From Akkermansiaceae bacterium (GTDB taxonomy: Bacteria; Verrucomicrobiota; Verrucomicrobiia; Verrucomicrobiales; Akkermansiaceae): 64,000 nt of DNA. Below, piece after piece: positions 29,108 through 43,360 of the stretch. The position numbers and the translations under genes were made by a program. A model generated the notes under the pieces. It saw only the letters and a program-made list of their open reading frames with translations. It was not told the DNA's origin and ran no database searches. The stretch's first letter is position 1. Each line of letters starts with the position of its first letter. Where the stretch lies: assembly GCA_026421245.1 (NCBI GenBank), contig JAPKDJ010000007.1:1-64000 (forward strand). The letters are read 5' to 3'.

Positions 29108-29758
29108 ATGCTGAAGCAGGAGCGCGCCGACTATGTTCTTCGACGTCTTGAGGAGTTGTATCCGGAAACGCCAATTCCTTTGGATCATACCAATCCTTTC
29201 ACCCTTCTTGTTGCGGTTCTATTGTCAGCCCAGTGCACCGATGTCCGGGTCAATCTCGTGACTCCAGCTTTGTTCAAACTTGCCGACTCGGCAGAGAAGA
29301 TGAGGAAGCTATCGGTCGAGAAAATTAATTCTATTGTCCGTCCCTGTGGTCTCGCTCCTCGAAAAGCGGCTTCTATCCAGGGGCTTTCTCAGATTTTGGT
29401 GGAAAAACACGGAGGAAAGGTTCCTGCCGATATGGCGGCCTTGGAAGAGCTTCCGGGGGTGGGTCACAAGACGGCTTCAGTCGTGATGGCGCAGGCATTC
29501 GAAGTGCCGGCCTTTCCAGTGGATACCCACATTCACCGTCTTGCCCAGCGGTGGAAATTAACCGATGGTCGGAATGTGCAACGCACTGAAGAAGACTTAA
29601 AGAAACTCTTCCCCCGAGAATTGTGGAACAAGCTCCACCTGCAGATCATTTTCTATGGTCGCGAGTATTGTAGTGCAAGAGGGTGCAACGGAATGGTCTG
29701 CGAGATCTGTAAAGTCTTATTCCCAAGCCGAAAGACACCCGTCCGAACCAAAAAATAA
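29108..29758 (+). CDS. nth: Endonuclease III
   Basis: LLSAQCTDVRVNLVTPALF, LEELPGVGHKTASVVMAQAF, FPVDTHIHRLAQRW, C-terminal Cys cluster CSARGCNGMVCEIC. Confidence 0.93.
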   Translation: MLKQERADYVLRRLEELYPETPIPLDHTNPFTLLVAVLLSAQCTDVRVNLVTPALFKLADSAEKMRKLSVEKINSIVRPCGLAPRKAASIQGLSQILVEKHGGKVPADMAALEELPGVGHKTASVVMAQAFEVPAFPVDTHIHRLAQRWKLTDGRNVQRTEEDLKKLFPRELWNKLHLQIIFYGREYCSARGCNGMVCEICKVLFPSRKTPVRTKK

Positions 29759-29923
29759 GACTTCCCACTACGCATGGGCAAAGTGCGAGAGTCATGATGT
29801 CATGATGTCAAGACTTCAATCTTTCACGGAATTCGCTGTTTTCTGGAAAAGTTCCTTTACTCAGCGGGCTCACTTTCGAGAATGAAAGCCAGCTTCATCC
29901 TCAACCGACCTCAAACACACACC

Positions 29924-30712
29924 ATGACTCAGATCTCCAAGTTCCGTACCGCCAAAGGGTGGCTCGTAGGTTCCGCTTTCACCCTTCTTGCCGCCGCTCC
30001 TGCGCTTGCTCAGGAGGGTGCCCAAAAAGACAAAAGTGCCCTTGATAGCTATCTGCTCGATGGTGGTCCGCTCACCATCTTTATTGTTGCTGTCGGTCTC
30101 CTTTCTCTCATTAGTTTGACGGTTTTCAACTTCATGAACCTCACCAAGGCGAAGTTTGCTCCCGATGACTTGAAGGCAGCGCTTCTCGATCACATGACTA
30201 ATTGCCGTGTGCGCTCCGCGATCGAGCTTTCAGCCTCCCATCCTTCCTACCTTGGTCGTATGATGGCCTACTCTCTTCCCAACATCGACGCCACCCGCCC
30301 GGAGGATCTTGGACGCGACCACGTTGAGGACGCTATTGCTGATTTCTCCATCAACGAAACCCGCAAGCAGATGACTTTCATCACCTTGCTTTCCCTCGTT
30401 GCACAAGCCGCTCCCATGCTCGGTCTCTTTGGAACCGTCTTCGGTATGATCGGGGCATTCTCGACTTTGGGTGAAAATGCCGGAGCCGATCCCCAGGATC
30501 TCGCGGCCGATATCTCGGTTGCCCTTTTGACCACTATGTGGGGCCTGATCGTTGCCATCCTTTCTCTCTTCGCCTACTTCTTCTTTAAGAACCGCTTCAA
30601 CGCCTTGGTCGCTGATTGTCATGGCACTGCGGAGAATTTGATCAATGCATCCATCCAGACTGTGAATGCGGATGCACATCTTGCTAAGATTCCCGAGGGG
30701 ATTGCCGTTTAA
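29924..30712 (+). CDS. MotA/TolQ/ExbB family proton channel protein with N-terminal leader
   Basis: MTQISKFRTAKGWLVGSAFTLLAAAPALAQ leader; 'AQAAPMLGLFGTVFGMIGAFSTLGENAGADPQDLAADISVALLTTMWGLIVAI'. Confidence 0.9.
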   Translation: MTQISKFRTAKGWLVGSAFTLLAAAPALAQEGAQKDKSALDSYLLDGGPLTIFIVAVGLLSLISLTVFNFMNLTKAKFAPDDLKAALLDHMTNCRVRSAIELSASHPSYLGRMMAYSLPNIDATRPEDLGRDHVEDAIADFSINETRKQMTFITLLSLVAQAAPMLGLFGTVFGMIGAFSTLGENAGADPQDLAADISVALLTTMWGLIVAILSLFAYFFFKNRFNALVADCHGTAENLINASIQTVNADAHLAKIPEGIAV

Positions 30713-30773
30713 CCCGCCAGAGGGGAGGGAATGACTCCTTCCCCCTCGTTGAACTTCACCACCTCAAAATCCA

Positions 30774-31241
30774 ATGGCTTCAAACAGACTCCGCGCAGTC
30801 AACAAGAACCAGGGCGAACCAGCCGAGATGGACATGTCACCAATGATCGACATGGTCTTTCTGTTGCTTCTCTTCTTCCTCGTTGTTTCTAACCCGAAAA
30901 CAATCAAAATTGATCCGAGGGTCCAACCACCGGTTGCTGCCAATGGACAAGCCGCGAAATCGCTCCACGGTAAGATCGTGATCAATATCCGAGATGATGG
31001 AGCTCTCCTTGCCGAAGATCTCAAAACGATATTTGACGGTGTTGAAGATCTCAAGGACTACCTGGAAAAGGAGAAGGACAAAGTGAAGGCCAAGGGAAAA
31101 ACTCCCGTGCTTCACATCCGTGGAGACAAGCGAGCTAACTTCAAGTTTTGCCAGCGCGTCATCAAAGCAGGGGCAGCAGCAGGGATTGATTCTCTTGCCT
31201 ACGGTGCCTACAACAAAGCTCCTCCCAGATCTGCAAAGTAA
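30774..31241 (+). CDS. ExbD/TolR family biopolymer transporter (first copy)
   Basis: 'EMDMSPMIDMVFLLLLFFLV' single TM; 'ILHIRGDKRANF'-like C-domain (VLHIRGDKRANFKFCQRVI). Confidence 0.88.
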   Translation: MASNRLRAVNKNQGEPAEMDMSPMIDMVFLLLLFFLVVSNPKTIKIDPRVQPPVAANGQAAKSLHGKIVINIRDDGALLAEDLKTIFDGVEDLKDYLEKEKDKVKAKGKTPVLHIRGDKRANFKFCQRVIKAGAAAGIDSLAYGAYNKAPPRSAK

Positions 31242-31256
31242 ACGTAGAAAATTGAT

Positions 31257-31733
31257 ATGTCGCGCCACAAAAAAATGCAGCCTCCCGAGGAAGATGAACC
31301 AGCGTTGAATATCTCCTCGTTGATTGACGTTTGTTTTCTTCTCTTGATCTACTTTATCGTCACAACCCAGATTGTTCGAAAGGAACAGGAACTCAGCACT
31401 TCGCTCCCCTCGGTCGCTCCCTCTGAAACTCCGCCGGAACTCGCTCCAATGCTGATCCTCTTGGAGGCAAACGGAAACATTTCCATCAAGGGTGAAAGTG
31501 GTGTGGTCGAACTCATTGAATCAAATTCCGATGCCCGTGTGCTCACGAATCTTTCCCAGCGTCTTGATCTGCACAAAAGTGTTGCTGATACCTCCAGTAG
31601 CACGGCTTTGGTGCAAATTCGGGTGGACGGTGATGCCGTGCAACAGCGGGTGATCGATGTTCTCAACGCTCTTGCTGGAGCGGAGATTACCGAGATTACT
31701 TTCACTGACCTTTTGGACCCTGACGCCAACTAA
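31257..31733 (+). CDS. ExbD/TolR family biopolymer transporter (second copy)
   Basis: 'ALNISSLIDVCFLLLIYFIVTTQI' single TM; 'VQIRVDGDAVQQRVIDVLNAL'. Confidence 0.88.
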   Translation: MSRHKKMQPPEEDEPALNISSLIDVCFLLLIYFIVTTQIVRKEQELSTSLPSVAPSETPPELAPMLILLEANGNISIKGESGVVELIESNSDARVLTNLSQRLDLHKSVADTSSSTALVQIRVDGDAVQQRVIDVLNALAGAEITEITFTDLLDPDAN

Positions 31734-31870
31734 TGGCCTCTCGGTTTCATCCGAATTAACCTAAGGAATACCTTGCGGACATCGTTCCAACTCTTGCCGG
31801 AAGGCTGAAGAGCTGCCCAGGCTCTCAGCCTTTCTTTTTCCCAAAAAATACTCACGCCACCACACGAACC

Positions 31871-34800
31871 ATGAACTCCATCCAATCGATCCGCCGAACC
31901 TTCGGGGTCGTCCTGCTCGCTCTCTGCGGCTTCTGCGCTCCGCTGCAAGGACAGGCCCTTGCCAACATGCATAAAGAGTCCCTTGATGCCATGAAGACCG
32001 GCAAGTGGGCTGAAGCCCAAGCCGTTCTCGTCAAAGCCACCAACACTTACGACGCCCGTGCTCTCCAACTCTTCGGGCCCCGCTTTGGTTGGTTCTGGTA
32101 TCACCGCGGCTACTGCGAAATCAAACTGAACATGTTTGATGACGCGATGAAGTCGTTCGAGAAGTGCTACGCCAAATACAAGAACGTGAAGCCGAAGCCA
32201 AATCAGGCTCCGAGTAACAACATGTATAATAAGAAGGCCCTCCTCATGTGGGGACACGCCGCCAAGGGTGCGGAAGAGTGGGGCACTTCCATCCGGATGT
32301 ATAAAAAGTTTCTGGAGGAGCGTGATGAAAGCCGTGATCGCTACGAAAAAGGCGTGTTCTACATCAACATGGCCATCAACCACTACAAGCTGGATAAGGT
32401 CACGGAGGGCAGCAAATATCTTGAAACAGCGATCACCGGAAAGGTTGTCTTTCCAACCCCAAACAAAGGCATCATGGCTGCCTTCAATGTCATGGTTGAG
32501 TCTGTCATTAGGAAGAAAGATGAGCAGGCTCTCCTCGACTTCCTCGCCAAGAACCGGGCACACATCAAGCTGGAGCCGTTTGAGGCCCACGAATTTTCTG
32601 CTCTCTTCATGAAGCTAGCCCAAGATGCTCGCTCTGCGGAGATGATTAGGTCAACCTTTGAGCTCTACGCCTTGGTCCCCAGTACCGTGGCTGCCATCGA
32701 TTCGATTAAAGCACGTCTTGCCATGGTGGGCACCCACGCTCGAACCATCCGTGATGGCTCCATGATCGTGAAAAAGGATGACTTGAACGGGAGCCTTACC
32801 GATCTTGAAAAAGCAAACTCATCGGGGAAAGTGAATGAGGTCTATGCGTATCTCAACACTGCCGTTCTCCATGAAGAGGATGGAAACATCCGTGGTGCCT
32901 TTGCTGTCTATGAGCAGCTTGAGCTTTACTATCCCAAGGCGAAGATCTTCCGTGATGGCAAGGTGGTCGCCGCTCGCGAGAACAATCTCTACAACCTCGT
33001 CCGGACTTCCGCCGTCATCGGCGAGGTACTCATCACTGAGCATTATGGATCGATCTTCTTGAAAGATTTCCCTGAGAGCTCGCACGTCAAGGAAGTCCGC
33101 CGGATGATGCTCACCAGCCTCTTTTTCAACGGCGAGTATGAAAAGTGTATCGAAGTTGCGGAACTCATGCTTCCGAGGCTCAGCAAGCCATCGACACAGC
33201 ATGAAGTGTGTCTCTTCGTTCTTGGTGGCAGCAAACACTACCTCGGTGCTTTTCTCGAAGCTCAGCCTATTCTCAACGAGTATATTGATACCTACAAGAA
33301 GAGCAAAGATTCCGACAAGCTCCGCGTTCAGGCTGCGTCCTACTTCCATGCGGCAAACTACTCGCGCCTGCAGGAATGGACAAAATCCGCTGGTTTGCTC
33401 GATGCGTTCCTTAAGGAATACCCCGAGCCAAAATCAAATCTCTATTACCCGTTCGCTCTCTTCGACCGTGCGAACTGCTTCTACGCAGAGAACCAATATG
33501 AAGAAGCGCTTGCATACACCACCCGGGTTGAGACCGAGTTTCCCGGTGTTTCAGTGATGGAACAAAATCTCGCTCTGAAAGGGAACGTTCTCGAAGGAGT
33601 AAAGAAGCCCGAAGAAGCCGAACAGTATTACCTGAAGGCCCTCGCGCTCTCAGAGAAGAAGAACAACGACCTCGTTTCCGGCGAGTGCCTCTTTTATCTG
33701 ACCGCTCTCATTGGTAAGGAAAAAATTGGTAAGGAGGAGAACCCCCGGGTTGCCGAAGCAGTTCCCTACTATAACAAGTTCTGGGAGGAATATGGTGATG
33801 ACTCGCCCTTTAAGGCGAAAGTTGCAGTCGCCGGGATTCCGGGAATGCGTAAGGTTGGAAAGATTGACGAAGCTCTTGAGCGCCTTCAGGGAGTTATTTC
33901 GGAGATCGCCAAAATCCCCGGAACTCCAGGACTTGAGGAATCCATCGGTTCCTATACCGACGAATATCTGAAGGAGAAAAATCCAGAGGAGCTCAAGGAA
34001 CATTACTACAATTTCCCGGGAATCGATTCCCGTGACATGGCGACCCGTGCTTTGCTTCGAATCGCGATCATCGATGTCTTCGAAGGTGTTCTCGCCAGCG
34101 CTGGCAAAGAAAATAATGAAGACATAGCGCGTGACGCTCAGGCTATGATTAACGTTCTCTTCAAGGAGCTTCGCGATGACTTTAACCCCAAGGATCTCTC
34201 GAACTTTATTCTTGTGAAAGTTGGAAACTTCATCCGTAAAAACACCAGTCAGCCTCAAGCCGCCCGCGTTTACTATGAGGAAGCTCTCAACCGTAAAAAC
34301 GACCAGTCGCACAAGTTTGCTGCCATTTTTGGGCTCGCCGATGTGAGTGCTCAAGGAAGCTCCAAAGCTCAAAAAACCGAGGCCATCAAATTACTCAAGC
34401 GGGTGATTGATGACTCCGACGACAATTCGGAGAGGGAAGAAGCCCAGTATTTAACCGCTTCAATCCATGCCGATAATGGTGACTACGACAAGGCCATTGA
34501 GGCAGCCAAGGAATATATCAACAACAAATCCTTCCGCCAATATAGCGTTCCTGCACGAATGCTTCTCGGTGCGGCTCATGACAAGTCCGGTCGCGCAGAT
34601 GATGCTCTTATCGCCTATCAACAGGTCTGGAGCTCAAGCATGGGTGCGATCCGCTACTCTGCTCCGGCAATGAAACGTTGGATGGAAATTCTTTGGAAAC
34701 GCAGTGGCAGCAACAAGAGTGGCCTGAGTGATCGCCAATATGCCTACGAAAAAGGGTATATGTATATCAAGCTGACCACTCTTGCTGTGAAGAAAGCAAC

Positions 34801-34900
34801 TCCCAATGAGCGAGCATTGTACGCCTTAGTTGCTGATCTGGTGCAGATCTACGAAGCGAACTCGGAAACCGAACCTGTCCTTGAAGAGGAAGAGAACTAG
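31871..34900 (+). CDS. Large secreted tetratricopeptide-repeat protein
   Basis: Signal peptide then many TPR-like repeats, e.g. 'AEAQAVLVKATNTYDARALQLFG', 'YPFALFDRANCFYAENQYEEALAYTTRVETEFP'. Confidence 0.83.
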   Translation: MNSIQSIRRTFGVVLLALCGFCAPLQGQALANMHKESLDAMKTGKWAEAQAVLVKATNTYDARALQLFGPRFGWFWYHRGYCEIKLNMFDDAMKSFEKCYAKYKNVKPKPNQAPSNNMYNKKALLMWGHAAKGAEEWGTSIRMYKKFLEERDESRDRYEKGVFYINMAINHYKLDKVTEGSKYLETAITGKVVFPTPNKGIMAAFNVMVESVIRKKDEQALLDFLAKNRAHIKLEPFEAHEFSALFMKLAQDARSAEMIRSTFELYALVPSTVAAIDSIKARLAMVGTHARTIRDGSMIVKKDDLNGSLTDLEKANSSGKVNEVYAYLNTAVLHEEDGNIRGAFAVYEQLELYYPKAKIFRDGKVVAARENNLYNLVRTSAVIGEVLITEHYGSIFLKDFPESSHVKEVRRMMLTSLFFNGEYEKCIEVAELMLPRLSKPSTQHEVCLFVLGGSKHYLGAFLEAQPILNEYIDTYKKSKDSDKLRVQAASYFHAANYSRLQEWTKSAGLLDAFLKEYPEPKSNLYYPFALFDRANCFYAENQYEEALAYTTRVETEFPGVSVMEQNLALKGNVLEGVKKPEEAEQYYLKALALSEKKNNDLVSGECLFYLTALIGKEKIGKEENPRVAEAVPYYNKFWEEYGDDSPFKAKVAVAGIPGMRKVGKIDEALERLQGVISEIAKIPGTPGLEESIGSYTDEYLKEKNPEELKEHYYNFPGIDSRDMATRALLRIAIIDVFEGVLASAGKENNEDIARDAQAMINVLFKELRDDFNPKDLSNFILVKVGNFIRKNTSQPQAARVYYEEALNRKNDQSHKFAAIFGLADVSAQGSSKAQKTEAIKLLKRVIDDSDDNSEREEAQYLTASIHADNGDYDKAIEAAKEYINNKSFRQYSVPARMLLGAAHDKSGRADDALIAYQQVWSSSMGAIRYSAPAMKRWMEILWKRSGSNKSGLSDRQYAYEKGYMYIKLTTLAVKKATPNERALYALVADLVQIYEANSETEPVLEEEEN

Positions 34901-34935
34901 AAGAAGAGAAACGAACCCAAACTGAACCAACAGAC

Positions 34936-35847
34936 ATGAAAAAAATTCTCACCACTGCCCTCTTCGTGGCCGCTTCTCTCAGTAGACTCTCTGCGATCGA
35001 GCCCCGAATTCTCATCGTCACTGACAAGGATACCTTTGCCGGTTACATGGCTGCTGCTGATAAAACCGCCTTTCTTTGGCGGGAAAACGAAGAGTCGACT
35101 TTGACCCGAAAGCAGAGCCAAAAAACCTGCACGGTCTACTTTATCCAGCCTCCCGAATTTACCGAGGCCATGGAACTTTATAAGAGTCGCAATTATAAGG
35201 ATGCCGCCGAAAAATTTGCCTTGTGTGTCGAATCATACAGCAAGGTGAAGGAGGTCCCCGGAAATCCTTCTACGCTGGCCGGTTTCTACCAAATGGAATG
35301 TGCCCGTCGTCTTGAGGATCTTGAAACTCTCGCAGGGCTCTTTGCGAAATTTGATCCAGAAAACCTCCTTCAGGAATTCCATAAGGTTCAATACGAGATG
35401 TATGGAGTCATTTGGGATGCAGTTCGCACCGCAAGCTGGAGTCGACTTGACACCATTTGTCGTGATGAGAAGTGGCGGAATCGTAAGCTTCCTGGAAGTC
35501 TACGGGCCCAGATCGCCTACTGCCACGGACTTGCCCTGGAAGGTGGAAACCAACCGATCAAGGCGCTCAATGCTTACAATAATGCCTTTGTTGCCGACTT
35601 CTCTGCGTCAGAGGAATTGACCCGCAAATCGGCTGTCAATTGTCTCCGCATCCTCTTGGATCATGAGGATGTGAAGACCACAATGGGTCTTTATACGACC
35701 GAGGACTACCGCGATGACTCCAACGGAGCCATGTTGATCAAGGAGGGAACGGCTATTCTTAAGCTTTGGGACAAGGTCCTGGGGGCCGGGAAAAAAGTTC
35801 CGGCCAAATACAAGGAGTTCCTCAAGTTTCCACCTAAAGGGAACTAA
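34936..35847 (+). CDS. Secreted protein of unknown function in the ExbBD-TPR operon
   Basis: Signal peptide MKKILTTALFVAASLSRLSA; TPR-like 'FTEAMELYKSRNYKDAAEKFALCVESYSKV'. Confidence 0.75.
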   Translation: MKKILTTALFVAASLSRLSAIEPRILIVTDKDTFAGYMAAADKTAFLWRENEESTLTRKQSQKTCTVYFIQPPEFTEAMELYKSRNYKDAAEKFALCVESYSKVKEVPGNPSTLAGFYQMECARRLEDLETLAGLFAKFDPENLLQEFHKVQYEMYGVIWDAVRTASWSRLDTICRDEKWRNRKLPGSLRAQIAYCHGLALEGGNQPIKALNAYNNAFVADFSASEELTRKSAVNCLRILLDHEDVKTTMGLYTTEDYRDDSNGAMLIKEGTAILKLWDKVLGAGKKVPAKYKEFLKFPPKGN

Positions 35848-35866: not shown

Positions 35867-35900
35867 CAAACGACGATCCTGAAAAGGATCGTCGTTTTCT
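35867..35900 (+). terminator. Rho-independent terminator
   Basis: AAACGACGATCCT GAAA AGGATCGTCGTTTTCTTTT. Confidence 0.9.
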
Positions 35901-39355: not shown

Positions 39356-39466
39356 CTAGAGCGTCGAGATGAGGCGGGAGGAGATCTTGGTGAAGTCCAG
39401 CGGGGCCGACGTTGGGGTAAGAAAGCCAAGGGCTGTGATGGAGAGGAAGAGTAGGAGGGATTTCAT
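39356..39466 (-). pseudogene. Short ORF/gene remnant (signal peptide, then frame-disrupted sulfatase-like text)
   Basis: MKSLLLFLSITALGFLTPTSAPLDFTKISSRLISTL*; another frame reads ...HLDALAASGVRGSD*; ATGA overlap with sulfatase stop. Confidence 0.4.
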
Positions 39467-41217
39467 TGCGAGCGTTTTGGAATGATAGCTTTGGCTCTTC
39501 GGTCTCCGATGATGAAGTGGCCGAGTGGATTTTTGGTCTTCGGGGAGGAAATTTGCCAGACCGCTCCGGGGCGGGTCTGTTGGGATTTGTTTCCCCCCGG
39601 AGGGATGAGTCCGTATGATGTCCGTTTGCCCTCGAGGGTCATCCAGAAAAGTTCGACGGCCTGGTCGGAACGATTGAGGAAGGTGAGGGTGAAGGGGTTT
39701 CCATCAGGTTTGGAGGGAGGGGTGGCGGTATTGTTTGAGGAATGCCACTTGAGGGACGGAAGAGCGGCCAGAGAGGGACGCTTGAGGGGAGCGAAGTTTT
39801 TTGGGGCAAGAGCTCGGAGCTCATTGAGTTTTTCCCTGTGTTCTTTTTTCCCGGCGAGGTTGGTCCACTCAAAGGGATCGTCTTGGATCTGGTAAAGTTC
39901 TTCGTCGCCATTTGCGTAGTGGATGTAGCGCCAGTCTTTTGTGCTGAGGCCGAAACTGCCGGGCTTACTGAGATGAGTGATGGAGGAGTGAGGCCAGGAG
40001 GATTTGTGGTTCTTTAGGAGGGGGGCAAGAGAGGGGGCGTGGTTGTCGTTTTTGTGAGGGATGCCGGTCAGTTGGGTGAGAGTGGGGAAGAGGCTGAGGA
40101 GATTGACCGGTTGGTCACAGATGGTGCCGGGCTTGGTGCCGGCGGGGAGTCCTGGAGCGCAGTTTTTTGGGATCCGGATCATGAGGGGCACGCGAGTGAC
40201 GGCGCGCCAGGCGGTGAATTTTTGCCAGTGTTGTTTCTCGCCGAGGTGCCAGCCGTGGTCACTCCAAAGGACGACGATGGTATTGTCGGCATTGGGTCCA
40301 TTCTCGAGGGCATCGAGAACGCGGCCAAGCATGGTGTCGGCAAAATGGATGGAGGCAAGGTAGCCCTGAATGGCTTGCTTCCATTGACCTTCATTACGAA
40401 TGTGAGCGAAGTAGCGGTTCGGACCGGTCTTTTTACCGGCGGCGGGAAGGTCGTCGAGATCGTCTTCGCGGTAGCCGGGAGGGAGTTGGATTTTTTCGAG
40501 AGGGAAGGGTTCGAAGTATTTTTTTGGAACGAACCACGGCTCGTGAGGTCGGTAGAATCCGCAGGCGAGAAAGAGGGGGGTTTCTTGTTTGATGGAGAGT
40601 TGTTGGGAAACCCATTCCGCGACTTTGGCATCACCGCCAAATTCTTCATCAGTGGCATCGAGAGGGCCCCAGTCGGTTTCGACGTATTGCCACGGGCCAC
40701 CGCGGGTGAGGGAAAGGGGGCGTTTTTTTGGGTAAAGGGTGAAGGGAAAGGGGTCTTCCGATTCCTTTTTCGGGAAGTATTCGTCCCACGATTTTGCGTC
40801 GATGAAGTAGTGAAGCATTTTTCCGGAGCCGCTGGCGCGATAGCCATGGTCGCGAAAATGCTGGGGGATAATTTTTGCGTTGGGGAGGATCTCGCGCATC
40901 TTTTGTCCGTTGTCGTAGAGTCCGGAGCGATGAGGCGAGAGCCCGGACATGATGGCGGTGCGGGAGGGATTGCACGCAGCACCCGGGCAATGGGCATTTG
41001 TGAAAAGGACCCCGCTGGCAGCGAGTCGATCAAGGTTGGGGGTGATCGTTTGGGGGTGCCCGCCTAGGCAGCCGATCCAGTCGTTGAGATCATCAAGGGC
41101 GATAAAGAGGATGTTGGGCGGGGATGCCTGGGCTGCGAGCAGTGGGGATGAACTTTGGAAGAAGAAGGTAATCAGGAGACTCAGGATCCGGAATTTTGAT
41201 CCGAGGTGATTTTTCAT
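39463..41217 (-). CDS. Sulfatase (iduronate-2-sulfatase-like), Cys-type
   Basis: 'PNILFIALDDLNDWIGCLGGHPQTITPNLDRLAASG', CNPSR motif, 'VVLWSDHGWHLGEKQHWQKFTAW'. Confidence 0.92.
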   Translation of the reverse strand: MKNHLGSKFRILSLLITFFFQSSSPLLAAQASPPNILFIALDDLNDWIGCLGGHPQTITPNLDRLAASGVLFTNAHCPGAACNPSRTAIMSGLSPHRSGLYDNGQKMREILPNAKIIPQHFRDHGYRASGSGKMLHYFIDAKSWDEYFPKKESEDPFPFTLYPKKRPLSLTRGGPWQYVETDWGPLDATDEEFGGDAKVAEWVSQQLSIKQETPLFLACGFYRPHEPWFVPKKYFEPFPLEKIQLPPGYREDDLDDLPAAGKKTGPNRYFAHIRNEGQWKQAIQGYLASIHFADTMLGRVLDALENGPNADNTIVVLWSDHGWHLGEKQHWQKFTAWRAVTRVPLMIRIPKNCAPGLPAGTKPGTICDQPVNLLSLFPTLTQLTGIPHKNDNHAPSLAPLLKNHKSSWPHSSITHLSKPGSFGLSTKDWRYIHYANGDEELYQIQDDPFEWTNLAGKKEHREKLNELRALAPKNFAPLKRPSLAALPSLKWHSSNNTATPPSKPDGNPFTLTFLNRSDQAVELFWMTLEGKRTSYGLIPPGGNKSQQTRPGAVWQISSPKTKNPLGHFIIGDRRAKAIIPKRSQ

Positions 41218-41224
41218 CGTGAGG

Positions 41225-43360
41225 CTACTTGATTGAGATTTTGAGAGATTTCAGTGGGACGCTGAGATTGAAGCCTTGTTCGTAATCTCCGACGAGGCCG
41301 CCGTTGTCTTGGCCGATCTCGAAGGTGTCGATGGGGTGTTCGGCGAGGAGGGCATTGCCTTCTTTAAGGGTGAGGCGTTTGTTGTCGGAGCGGAGAATGA
41401 TGCCTTTTTTTGTGACGCGGGCTTCGAAGGAGCCAGTGGCGTCTTTAGGAAGAGGAGCAGTGGCGGTGATGGATTTCCCGCCTTTACGGACGGTGAAAGC
41501 AAGGTTGCCATCTTTGAGATAGAGGGACCATCCATGACTGGAGCCGCCTTGGGCTACGATGACCCCGGTGGCGGGAAGCTTTTCAATGGTAGCGGAGACG
41601 GTGAAGGGGCGCTTGGCGATGTTGGGTGAGGTTTCGCTGGTAAAGGGATCTCCCGGCTTGAGATTGAATTCCTTTTTGGGAGAAGCTTTGACCTTCTTAT
41701 TTTTATTCCAGGAACCGAAGGGGACGATGCCGCGCTCCTTGGCCCAGGTTTCATATTGGGCGGTCATGGTTTTGACACGGTCAGGGTTCTTGTCGGCAAG
41801 GTTGTTCATTTCGGTGCGGTCGGCGGGGATGTTGTAGAGTTCCCATTTTCCTTTGACGCTTTTGGCGACGAGTTTCCATTTACCATCGCGCACGGCGCGG
41901 TTGCCTTCGTGCTCGAAGAAGATGGGTTTGCCGCGCTTGATGGGGCTTCCTTTGAGAGCGGGAACGAGAGAAGTGCCTTCTATAGGGATTTTCGTGCTTG
42001 GATAGGTCGCTTTTCCCAGGTCGATGCAGGTGGCCATGAGGTCGATGAGGTGAGTCGGGTCTTTTGCCCAGGTATTCTTGCCGGCGATTCCCTTTGGCCA
42101 GTGGGCGATGAGGGGGGTGGAGATGCCCCCTTCATGGACCCAGTGCTTGTATTCGCGGAAGGGGGTATTGGAGACGTTGGCCCAGTTTTGTCCGTAGCCG
42201 ACTTCGGTCTCAGGTGGCCCGGGCATGACGCCATCACCTCGACGAAGCGGGTAGCCATCGCGTGACTGAAGTGGGACCATGTTGGTTTGGAGCTCGTCCT
42301 TACCCATGGGCTTGAGAGTCGGTTTGGCGGGGCGTTCAAGAGGGCCGACGAGTTTGCCGCGGCCGAAGCCTTCGGCACAGCCTCCGTTGTCCTGAAGGTA
42401 GAGGATGAGAGTGTTGTCGAGTTGCTTGTGATCTTTGAGGGCTTGCACGATGCGTCCAATGCCTTGGTCCATGTTATCGACCATGGCGGCGTAGACTTCC
42501 ATGCAGGCGGATTCCCATTCCTTGAGTTCGACCTTTGACCAATCGCCGATAGGGCCGGGGATCTCCCACTTGGGATCGATGAGGCCAAGCTGTTTCATTT
42601 TTTTGAGGCGGGCTTGGTAGGTAGGGTCGTAGCCGTCGTCATACTTGCCTTCGTATTTGGCGATGTCCTCGGGAAGGGCCTGCATGGGCCAGTGGGCGGC
42701 GGTGTAGGCGACGTAGTGGAAGAAAGGTTTGTCAGGGTAATCCTCGAAGTGGGACTTGAGGTAGTTGACGGTGTTATCGGAGATGGCGTCAGTGTAATAC
42801 CAGGTGCCCTTCGGTTTGTATCCGGGGTCGTTCTCGGGAGTGATTTGGGTATTGCCGCGGGTGAGGGAATTTGGATCAAAGAAGGAACCGGCGCCGTGGA
42901 TGGTGCCGAAGAATTTGTCGAAACCACGCTGGCGGGGCCAGTTGCCTTTTGGGTCGGCGGCTTTGACCTTGGGTGTGACGTGCCATTTTCCGGACATGTA
43001 GGTGCGGTAGCCGGCGGGTTTGAGGGCTTCGGCAATGGTGAGGCATTCTTTGTTCAGGAATCCCTGGTATTGGGGGATGCCGTAGTTGCTTGTCATGTGG
43101 CCAATGCCAGCCTGGTGGGCGTAGAGGCCGGTGAGGAGGGTAGCGCGGGTAGGGCAGCAGCGGGCCGTGTTGTAAAATTGAGTGAAACGCATTCCGTTGG
43201 CTGCGAGGGCATCAAGATTGGGCGTTTTGATCTCACCTCCGTAGCAGCCGATATCGGAGTAGCCCATGTCATCGGCCATGATGATAATGATATTGGGGCG
43301 GGTTTCTGCTCCAAAGCCTGAAGCAAGAAGGACGAGTGAAAGGAAGAGGCGATGAATCAT
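41225..43360 (-). CDS. Arylsulfatase, Cys-type, with C-terminal LamG-like extension
   Basis: 'PNIIIIMADDMGYSDIGCYGGEIKTPNLDALAANGMRFTQFYNTARCCPTRATLLTGLY'; C-terminal 'RPFTVSATIEKLPATGVIVAQGGSSHGWSLYLKDGNLAFTVR'. Confidence 0.92.
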   Translation of the reverse strand: MIHRLFLSLVLLASGFGAETRPNIIIIMADDMGYSDIGCYGGEIKTPNLDALAANGMRFTQFYNTARCCPTRATLLTGLYAHQAGIGHMTSNYGIPQYQGFLNKECLTIAEALKPAGYRTYMSGKWHVTPKVKAADPKGNWPRQRGFDKFFGTIHGAGSFFDPNSLTRGNTQITPENDPGYKPKGTWYYTDAISDNTVNYLKSHFEDYPDKPFFHYVAYTAAHWPMQALPEDIAKYEGKYDDGYDPTYQARLKKMKQLGLIDPKWEIPGPIGDWSKVELKEWESACMEVYAAMVDNMDQGIGRIVQALKDHKQLDNTLILYLQDNGGCAEGFGRGKLVGPLERPAKPTLKPMGKDELQTNMVPLQSRDGYPLRRGDGVMPGPPETEVGYGQNWANVSNTPFREYKHWVHEGGISTPLIAHWPKGIAGKNTWAKDPTHLIDLMATCIDLGKATYPSTKIPIEGTSLVPALKGSPIKRGKPIFFEHEGNRAVRDGKWKLVAKSVKGKWELYNIPADRTEMNNLADKNPDRVKTMTAQYETWAKERGIVPFGSWNKNKKVKASPKKEFNLKPGDPFTSETSPNIAKRPFTVSATIEKLPATGVIVAQGGSSHGWSLYLKDGNLAFTVRKGGKSITATAPLPKDATGSFEARVTKKGIILRSDNKRLTLKEGNALLAEHPIDTFEIGQDNGGLVGDYEQGFNLSVPLKSLKISIK

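Follow-up and report, generated by a model that had tools for sequence, protein, structure and literature searches.

Near the middle of the 64,000-nucleotide stretch of Akkermansiaceae DNA that we analysed, called here the window, five genes join an ExbB/ExbD-type motor to two exported proteins: what system do they form, and what could such a motor drive? The list of open reading frames places the genes on the plus strand between positions 29924 and 35847, in the order ExbB, ExbD1, ExbD2, a TPR protein of 1009 amino acids, and a protein of 303 amino acids. Sizes and order agree with an earlier note on this DNA, which had described an ExbB, two different ExbDs, a TPR protein and a second exported protein. 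The features are:

29108..29758, plus strand: nth (endonuclease III), flanking and outside the system; TIGR01083, 226 bits.
29924..30712, plus strand: ExbB/TolQ-type proton channel with an N-terminal signal peptide; PF01618 (MotA_ExbB), 88.9 bits.
30774..31241, plus strand: ExbD1, ExbD/TolR family; PF02472, 66.7 bits; invariant membrane Asp, own clade.
31257..31733, plus strand: ExbD2, ExbD/TolR family, unlike ExbD1; PF02472, 66.2 bits; invariant membrane Asp, own clade.
31871..34900, plus strand: exported TPR solenoid protein, 1009 amino acids, presumed Mul1A; many Pfam TPR models.
34936..35847, plus strand: exported protein of the Mul1B family, 303 amino acids; NF052542, 353 bits, full length.
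35868..35897, plus strand: intrinsic terminator, 13-pair stem with a T-rich tail; pattern scan and sequence.

The gaps along the cluster are 61, 15, 137 and 35 bases. The hairpin bears out the strong terminator that the note had placed at 35867, and the next gene beyond it lies on the opposite strand. Read by eye, the N-termini of the TPR protein and of the 303-residue protein are signal-peptide-like. The cluster holds no gene for a transducer or an outer-membrane channel; Pfam and NCBIfam searches of the five proteins found no match above cut-off to TonB, TolA, TolB or Pal, whose lack the note had remarked upon, and no match to a TonB receptor.

The last protein gives the system a name. No Pfam model matches it above cut-off; compared with the NCBIfam model NF052542, “Mul1B family putative transporter subunit”, it scores 353 bits over its full length, for a cut-off of 75, and its counterpart in an Akkermansia genome, G168, scores 292 bits. 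G168 is almost certainly the type strain of A. muciniphila; one of its M60 peptidase domains is identical across 253 residues to PDB 7SCI, an enzyme of that species. The locus of G168, L137, reads nth, ExbB, ExbD, ExbD, TPR protein (1101 amino acids) and Mul1B (347 amino acids): this is the order of the window, and the nth gene that precedes ExbB is 61% identical to its counterpart there. Between the two loci, identities are 51% for ExbB, 38% for ExbD1, 43% for ExbD2, about 25-28% for the TPR protein and 24% for Mul1B, and the pairwise scores of the five proteins reach z values of 15.6 to 62 against shuffled controls. The two TPR proteins align nearly end to end, over 1072 columns, with an E-value of 1e-65. 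Generic TPR likeness can be rejected as the source of this match, since the window's genome has three further TPR proteins beside ExbBD genes, and none of them matches the Akkermansia protein comparably.

We show here, at the level of sequence, that all five genes have homologues in the Akkermansia locus and share its order. From its gene list and from the name of the NCBIfam family, we take the MUL1 locus of A. muciniphila to be this very cluster; the window thus very probably carries the MUL1 locus in a marine member of the Akkermansiaceae. The likeness to the A. muciniphila system (Mul1A, Mul1B) comprises the five-gene order behind nth, the Mul1B family and a full-length TPR homologue; the differences are the marine host, the low identity of the TPR protein and Mul1B, and a substrate that is presumably not mucin. 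The suggestion that the cluster is a candidate undescribed machine is refuted by the named family and the syntenic locus. In the literature, PMC11480725 describes Amuc_0546 as a biopolymer transporter, and PMC13335810 lists Amuc_0543 with the vesicle-enriched proteins; from gene order we infer that they are ExbD1 and Mul1B, and both papers' assignments fit the locus numbering. In two Akkermansia-type genomes, about 1.1 kb with no obvious conserved gene separates ExbD2 from the TPR gene (L137:12197-13272, and the same place in L136); in L140 this interval is short.

How widely is the locus shared? When the phylum is sampled evenly, 34 of the 388 genomes have a protein above the NF052542 cut-off, all within the window's family, with weaker matches outside; 14 control genomes give no match. 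In a closer set of genomes, a small number from the order's other families exceed the cut-off too. About 40 separate genomes from the family and the wider order share the five-gene order itself; duplicate loci are removed from this count, and in one of the genomes the TPR gene is recognised by size and place only. Neighbourhood conservation, which the note had proposed as a check, is thus found, and it excludes chance. Among the relatives of this genus, those with names are metagenome-assembled genomes labelled Akkermansiaceae or Verrucomicrobiales, the closest being 92% identical in Mul1B; where a title names a source (TMED, NP53, FRAM, SFB, ANT, casp), it suggests a marine or otherwise aquatic origin. 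The window belongs to a marine genus of Akkermansiaceae. One relative, G045, has a second TPR protein 3' of Mul1B (L063:10353-13292, plus strand), related to the first and about 24% identical to the TPR protein of the window.

We now turn to the motor. Judged by the homologues, position 29924 (MTQISK...) is a better start for ExbB than the ATG further upstream at 29882, from which a longer open reading frame runs. The leader of this protein, which the note had singled out as unusual, is real: a signal-peptide-like N-terminus with an “AQ” site is common to most of 26 aligned homologues. N-terminal leaders are known on the ExbB of some proteobacteria, so the leader alone is not unusual. In the same 26 homologues, the Asp of “SPMID” in ExbD1 and of “SSLID” in ExbD2 are invariant, as are the Thr sites “GLxGTxxGM” and “ALxTTxxGL” of ExbB; with this alignment we show here that the motor retains its proton-pathway residues. 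The cluster proteins score far below the cut-offs of the ExbB, TolQ, ExbD and TolR equivalog models. In trees, ExbB groups with other MUL1 ExbBs and apart from the six other ExbBs of its own genome (93/94); where the six themselves belong is unsure, as their branches are long. The ExbDs fall into two distinct groups, one for ExbD1 and one for ExbD2 (91/96 and 77/83), and are therefore an old pair of different proteins, retained side by side. In G048, an extra ExbD-like gene (L073:3385-3873, plus strand) brings the number in the cluster to three.

The two exported proteins were modelled as well. The AlphaFold model of the TPR protein is all-helical, a single long solenoid (pLDDT 84, pTM 0.45), whose overall curvature is unsure given this pTM; that of Mul1B begins with a small beta domain and continues in TPR-like helices (pLDDT 88). 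A fold search with the Mul1B model returns nothing at an E-value of 0.001 or better, and one with the TPR model finds nothing but large TPR scaffolds whose functions vary, which is uninformative on mechanism.

What, then, would the machine do? The mul genes are reported to be required for the accumulation of mucin products by A. muciniphila (PMC13174399, PMC12418764); some glycan enzymes are marked as Mul1A-associated (PMC11790493), and marine Akkermansiaceae are reported in the literature to take up fucoidan. We therefore favour, as the best explanation, a proton-driven ExbB/ExbD1/ExbD2 motor that takes up glycans together with a scaffold of TPR protein and Mul1B in the periplasm, a reading that we hold to be reasonably probable. 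That the cluster serves glycan uptake at all in its marine host seems likely, a little more so than the full reading. In keeping with the use of sulfated marine glycans, an adjacent pair of exported sulfatase-like genes, read from the sequence, lies near the cluster on the minus strand (39463-41217 and 41225-43360). An energised envelope or uptake machine with no TonB in its operon is what the earlier note had proposed, and it is still the best reading, with the correction that the machine is already described through the Mul1B family and the Akkermansia synteny.

By analogy with solved 5:2 motors, a pentamer of ExbB would hold one ExbD1 and one ExbD2, and proton flow would move this pair. The periplasmic domains of the ExbDs would then act on the scaffold, with or without an intermediate transducer encoded elsewhere; that the ExbDs pass force straight to the TPR protein is possible, if somewhat doubtful. 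The scaffold, a long TPR solenoid with Mul1B in the periplasm, would collect glycan-degrading enzymes, and may help to hold polymeric glycans and draw them into the periplasm. The substrate is mucin in Akkermansia; for the marine relative, a polysaccharide from algae or another marine source is more likely. One may go further, and conjecture a TonB-independent engine in which the two unlike ExbDs, as a pair, pass proton-driven motion directly to the solenoid, which reels polysaccharide into the periplasm; it would be ancestral to Akkermansiaceae, later specialised for mucin and deprived of its motor in some lineages; taken whole, this extension is rather unlikely.

The link between motor and scaffold is where the readings diverge. 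Four genomes (G046, G304, G267 and G356) have both the TPR protein and Mul1B, and the TPR protein occurs in two more (G043 and G301); in none of the six is a MUL1-type ExbB found. The best ExbB scores in the first four are 53-65 bits, against 375-520 in motor-bearing members of the family. G304 and G301 are single contigs, and missing sequence is therefore an unlikely cause of the absence there. In G022 and G025, the MUL1-type ExbB is present elsewhere in the genome, unlinked. These genomes are what one would cite in favour of a scaffold that works in the periplasm with no proton-driven force, the motor genes being conserved neighbours that do something related but distinct. However, a five-gene order kept in about 40 genomes speaks against such a separation, as does the fact that every tested genome with a MUL1-type ExbB also has the TPR protein, whereas the converse fails; G365 and G086 have neither. 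We consider this force-free alternative unlikely. Since several genomes keep the TPR protein without the motor, the motor is usual, not obligatory, and some lineages appear to have dropped it.

A second alternative makes the cluster a variant of Ton or Tol-Pal, in which the motor would drive an unlinked TonB or TolA and the TPR protein would be a CpoB-like helper. Both known systems share the ExbB/TolQ and ExbD/TolR motor families with the cluster, which differs from them in having no TonB, TolA, TolB, Pal or receptor, and in having a second ExbD. The genome does encode a single TonB, as well as five TonB-dependent receptors, all on other contigs, and the TPR protein matches the YbgF/CpoB model weakly, at 43 bits for a cut-off of 90.1. 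However, this TonB adjoins a different ExbB/ExbD pair, and the MUL1 ExbBs group separately from the TonB-linked ExbB. A canonical Ton motor is thus rejected, its ExbB being located elsewhere and grouping apart in the tree, and the variant is quite improbable. Beside yet another ExbB/ExbD pair of the genome lies a protein of 387 amino acids (L160:5881-7044, minus strand) with an N-terminal membrane helix and no Pfam match; it is a possible TonB-like transducer.

A surface-motility or adhesion machine of the Agl-Glt kind is very improbable: the AglRQS motor and Glt proteins of Myxococcus xanthus (PMC3169522) have parts alike in kind, one TolQ, two TolRs and exported TPR proteins, but they form a gliding machine with many more parts, the Pfam and NCBIfam searches identify no Glt-specific protein in the cluster, and Mul1B membership and the Akkermansia synteny argue for MUL1.

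Also comparable are clusters of the PVC group that contain one TolQ-like gene, two different TolR-like genes and a TPR gene, followed by a vWA gene (PMC12204202). The window differs in this last respect: no vWA transducer gene is found downstream of the fifth gene, where the terminator and the opposite-strand gene stand. TPR-linked ExbBD motors are common in the window's own genome: three further ExbB/ExbD modules (L156, L157 and L159) lie beside large exported TPR proteins of 1085, 798 and 2379 amino acids, and one of these modules includes a PD40 beta-propeller protein.

We return to the reading of a motor and scaffold for glycan uptake, and to its history. According to a 2026 paper (PMC13174399), MUL1 synteny is absent in aquatic Akkermansiaceae, from which the locus was inferred to be a mucin-specific adaptation of the gut lineage. 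The presence of the locus, in order, across many aquatic Akkermansiaceae argues against the absence stated in that paper, and the locus may have escaped notice because identity is low in the TPR protein and Mul1B. The system is a known one, and what is new is its distribution and its modularity: MUL1 in marine relatives suggests an older, general glycan-uptake machine, not an adaptation to the gut only. Relatives from outside the gut are thereby opened to tests of mechanism, and the genomes that have only the scaffold are natural tests of the motor's contribution.
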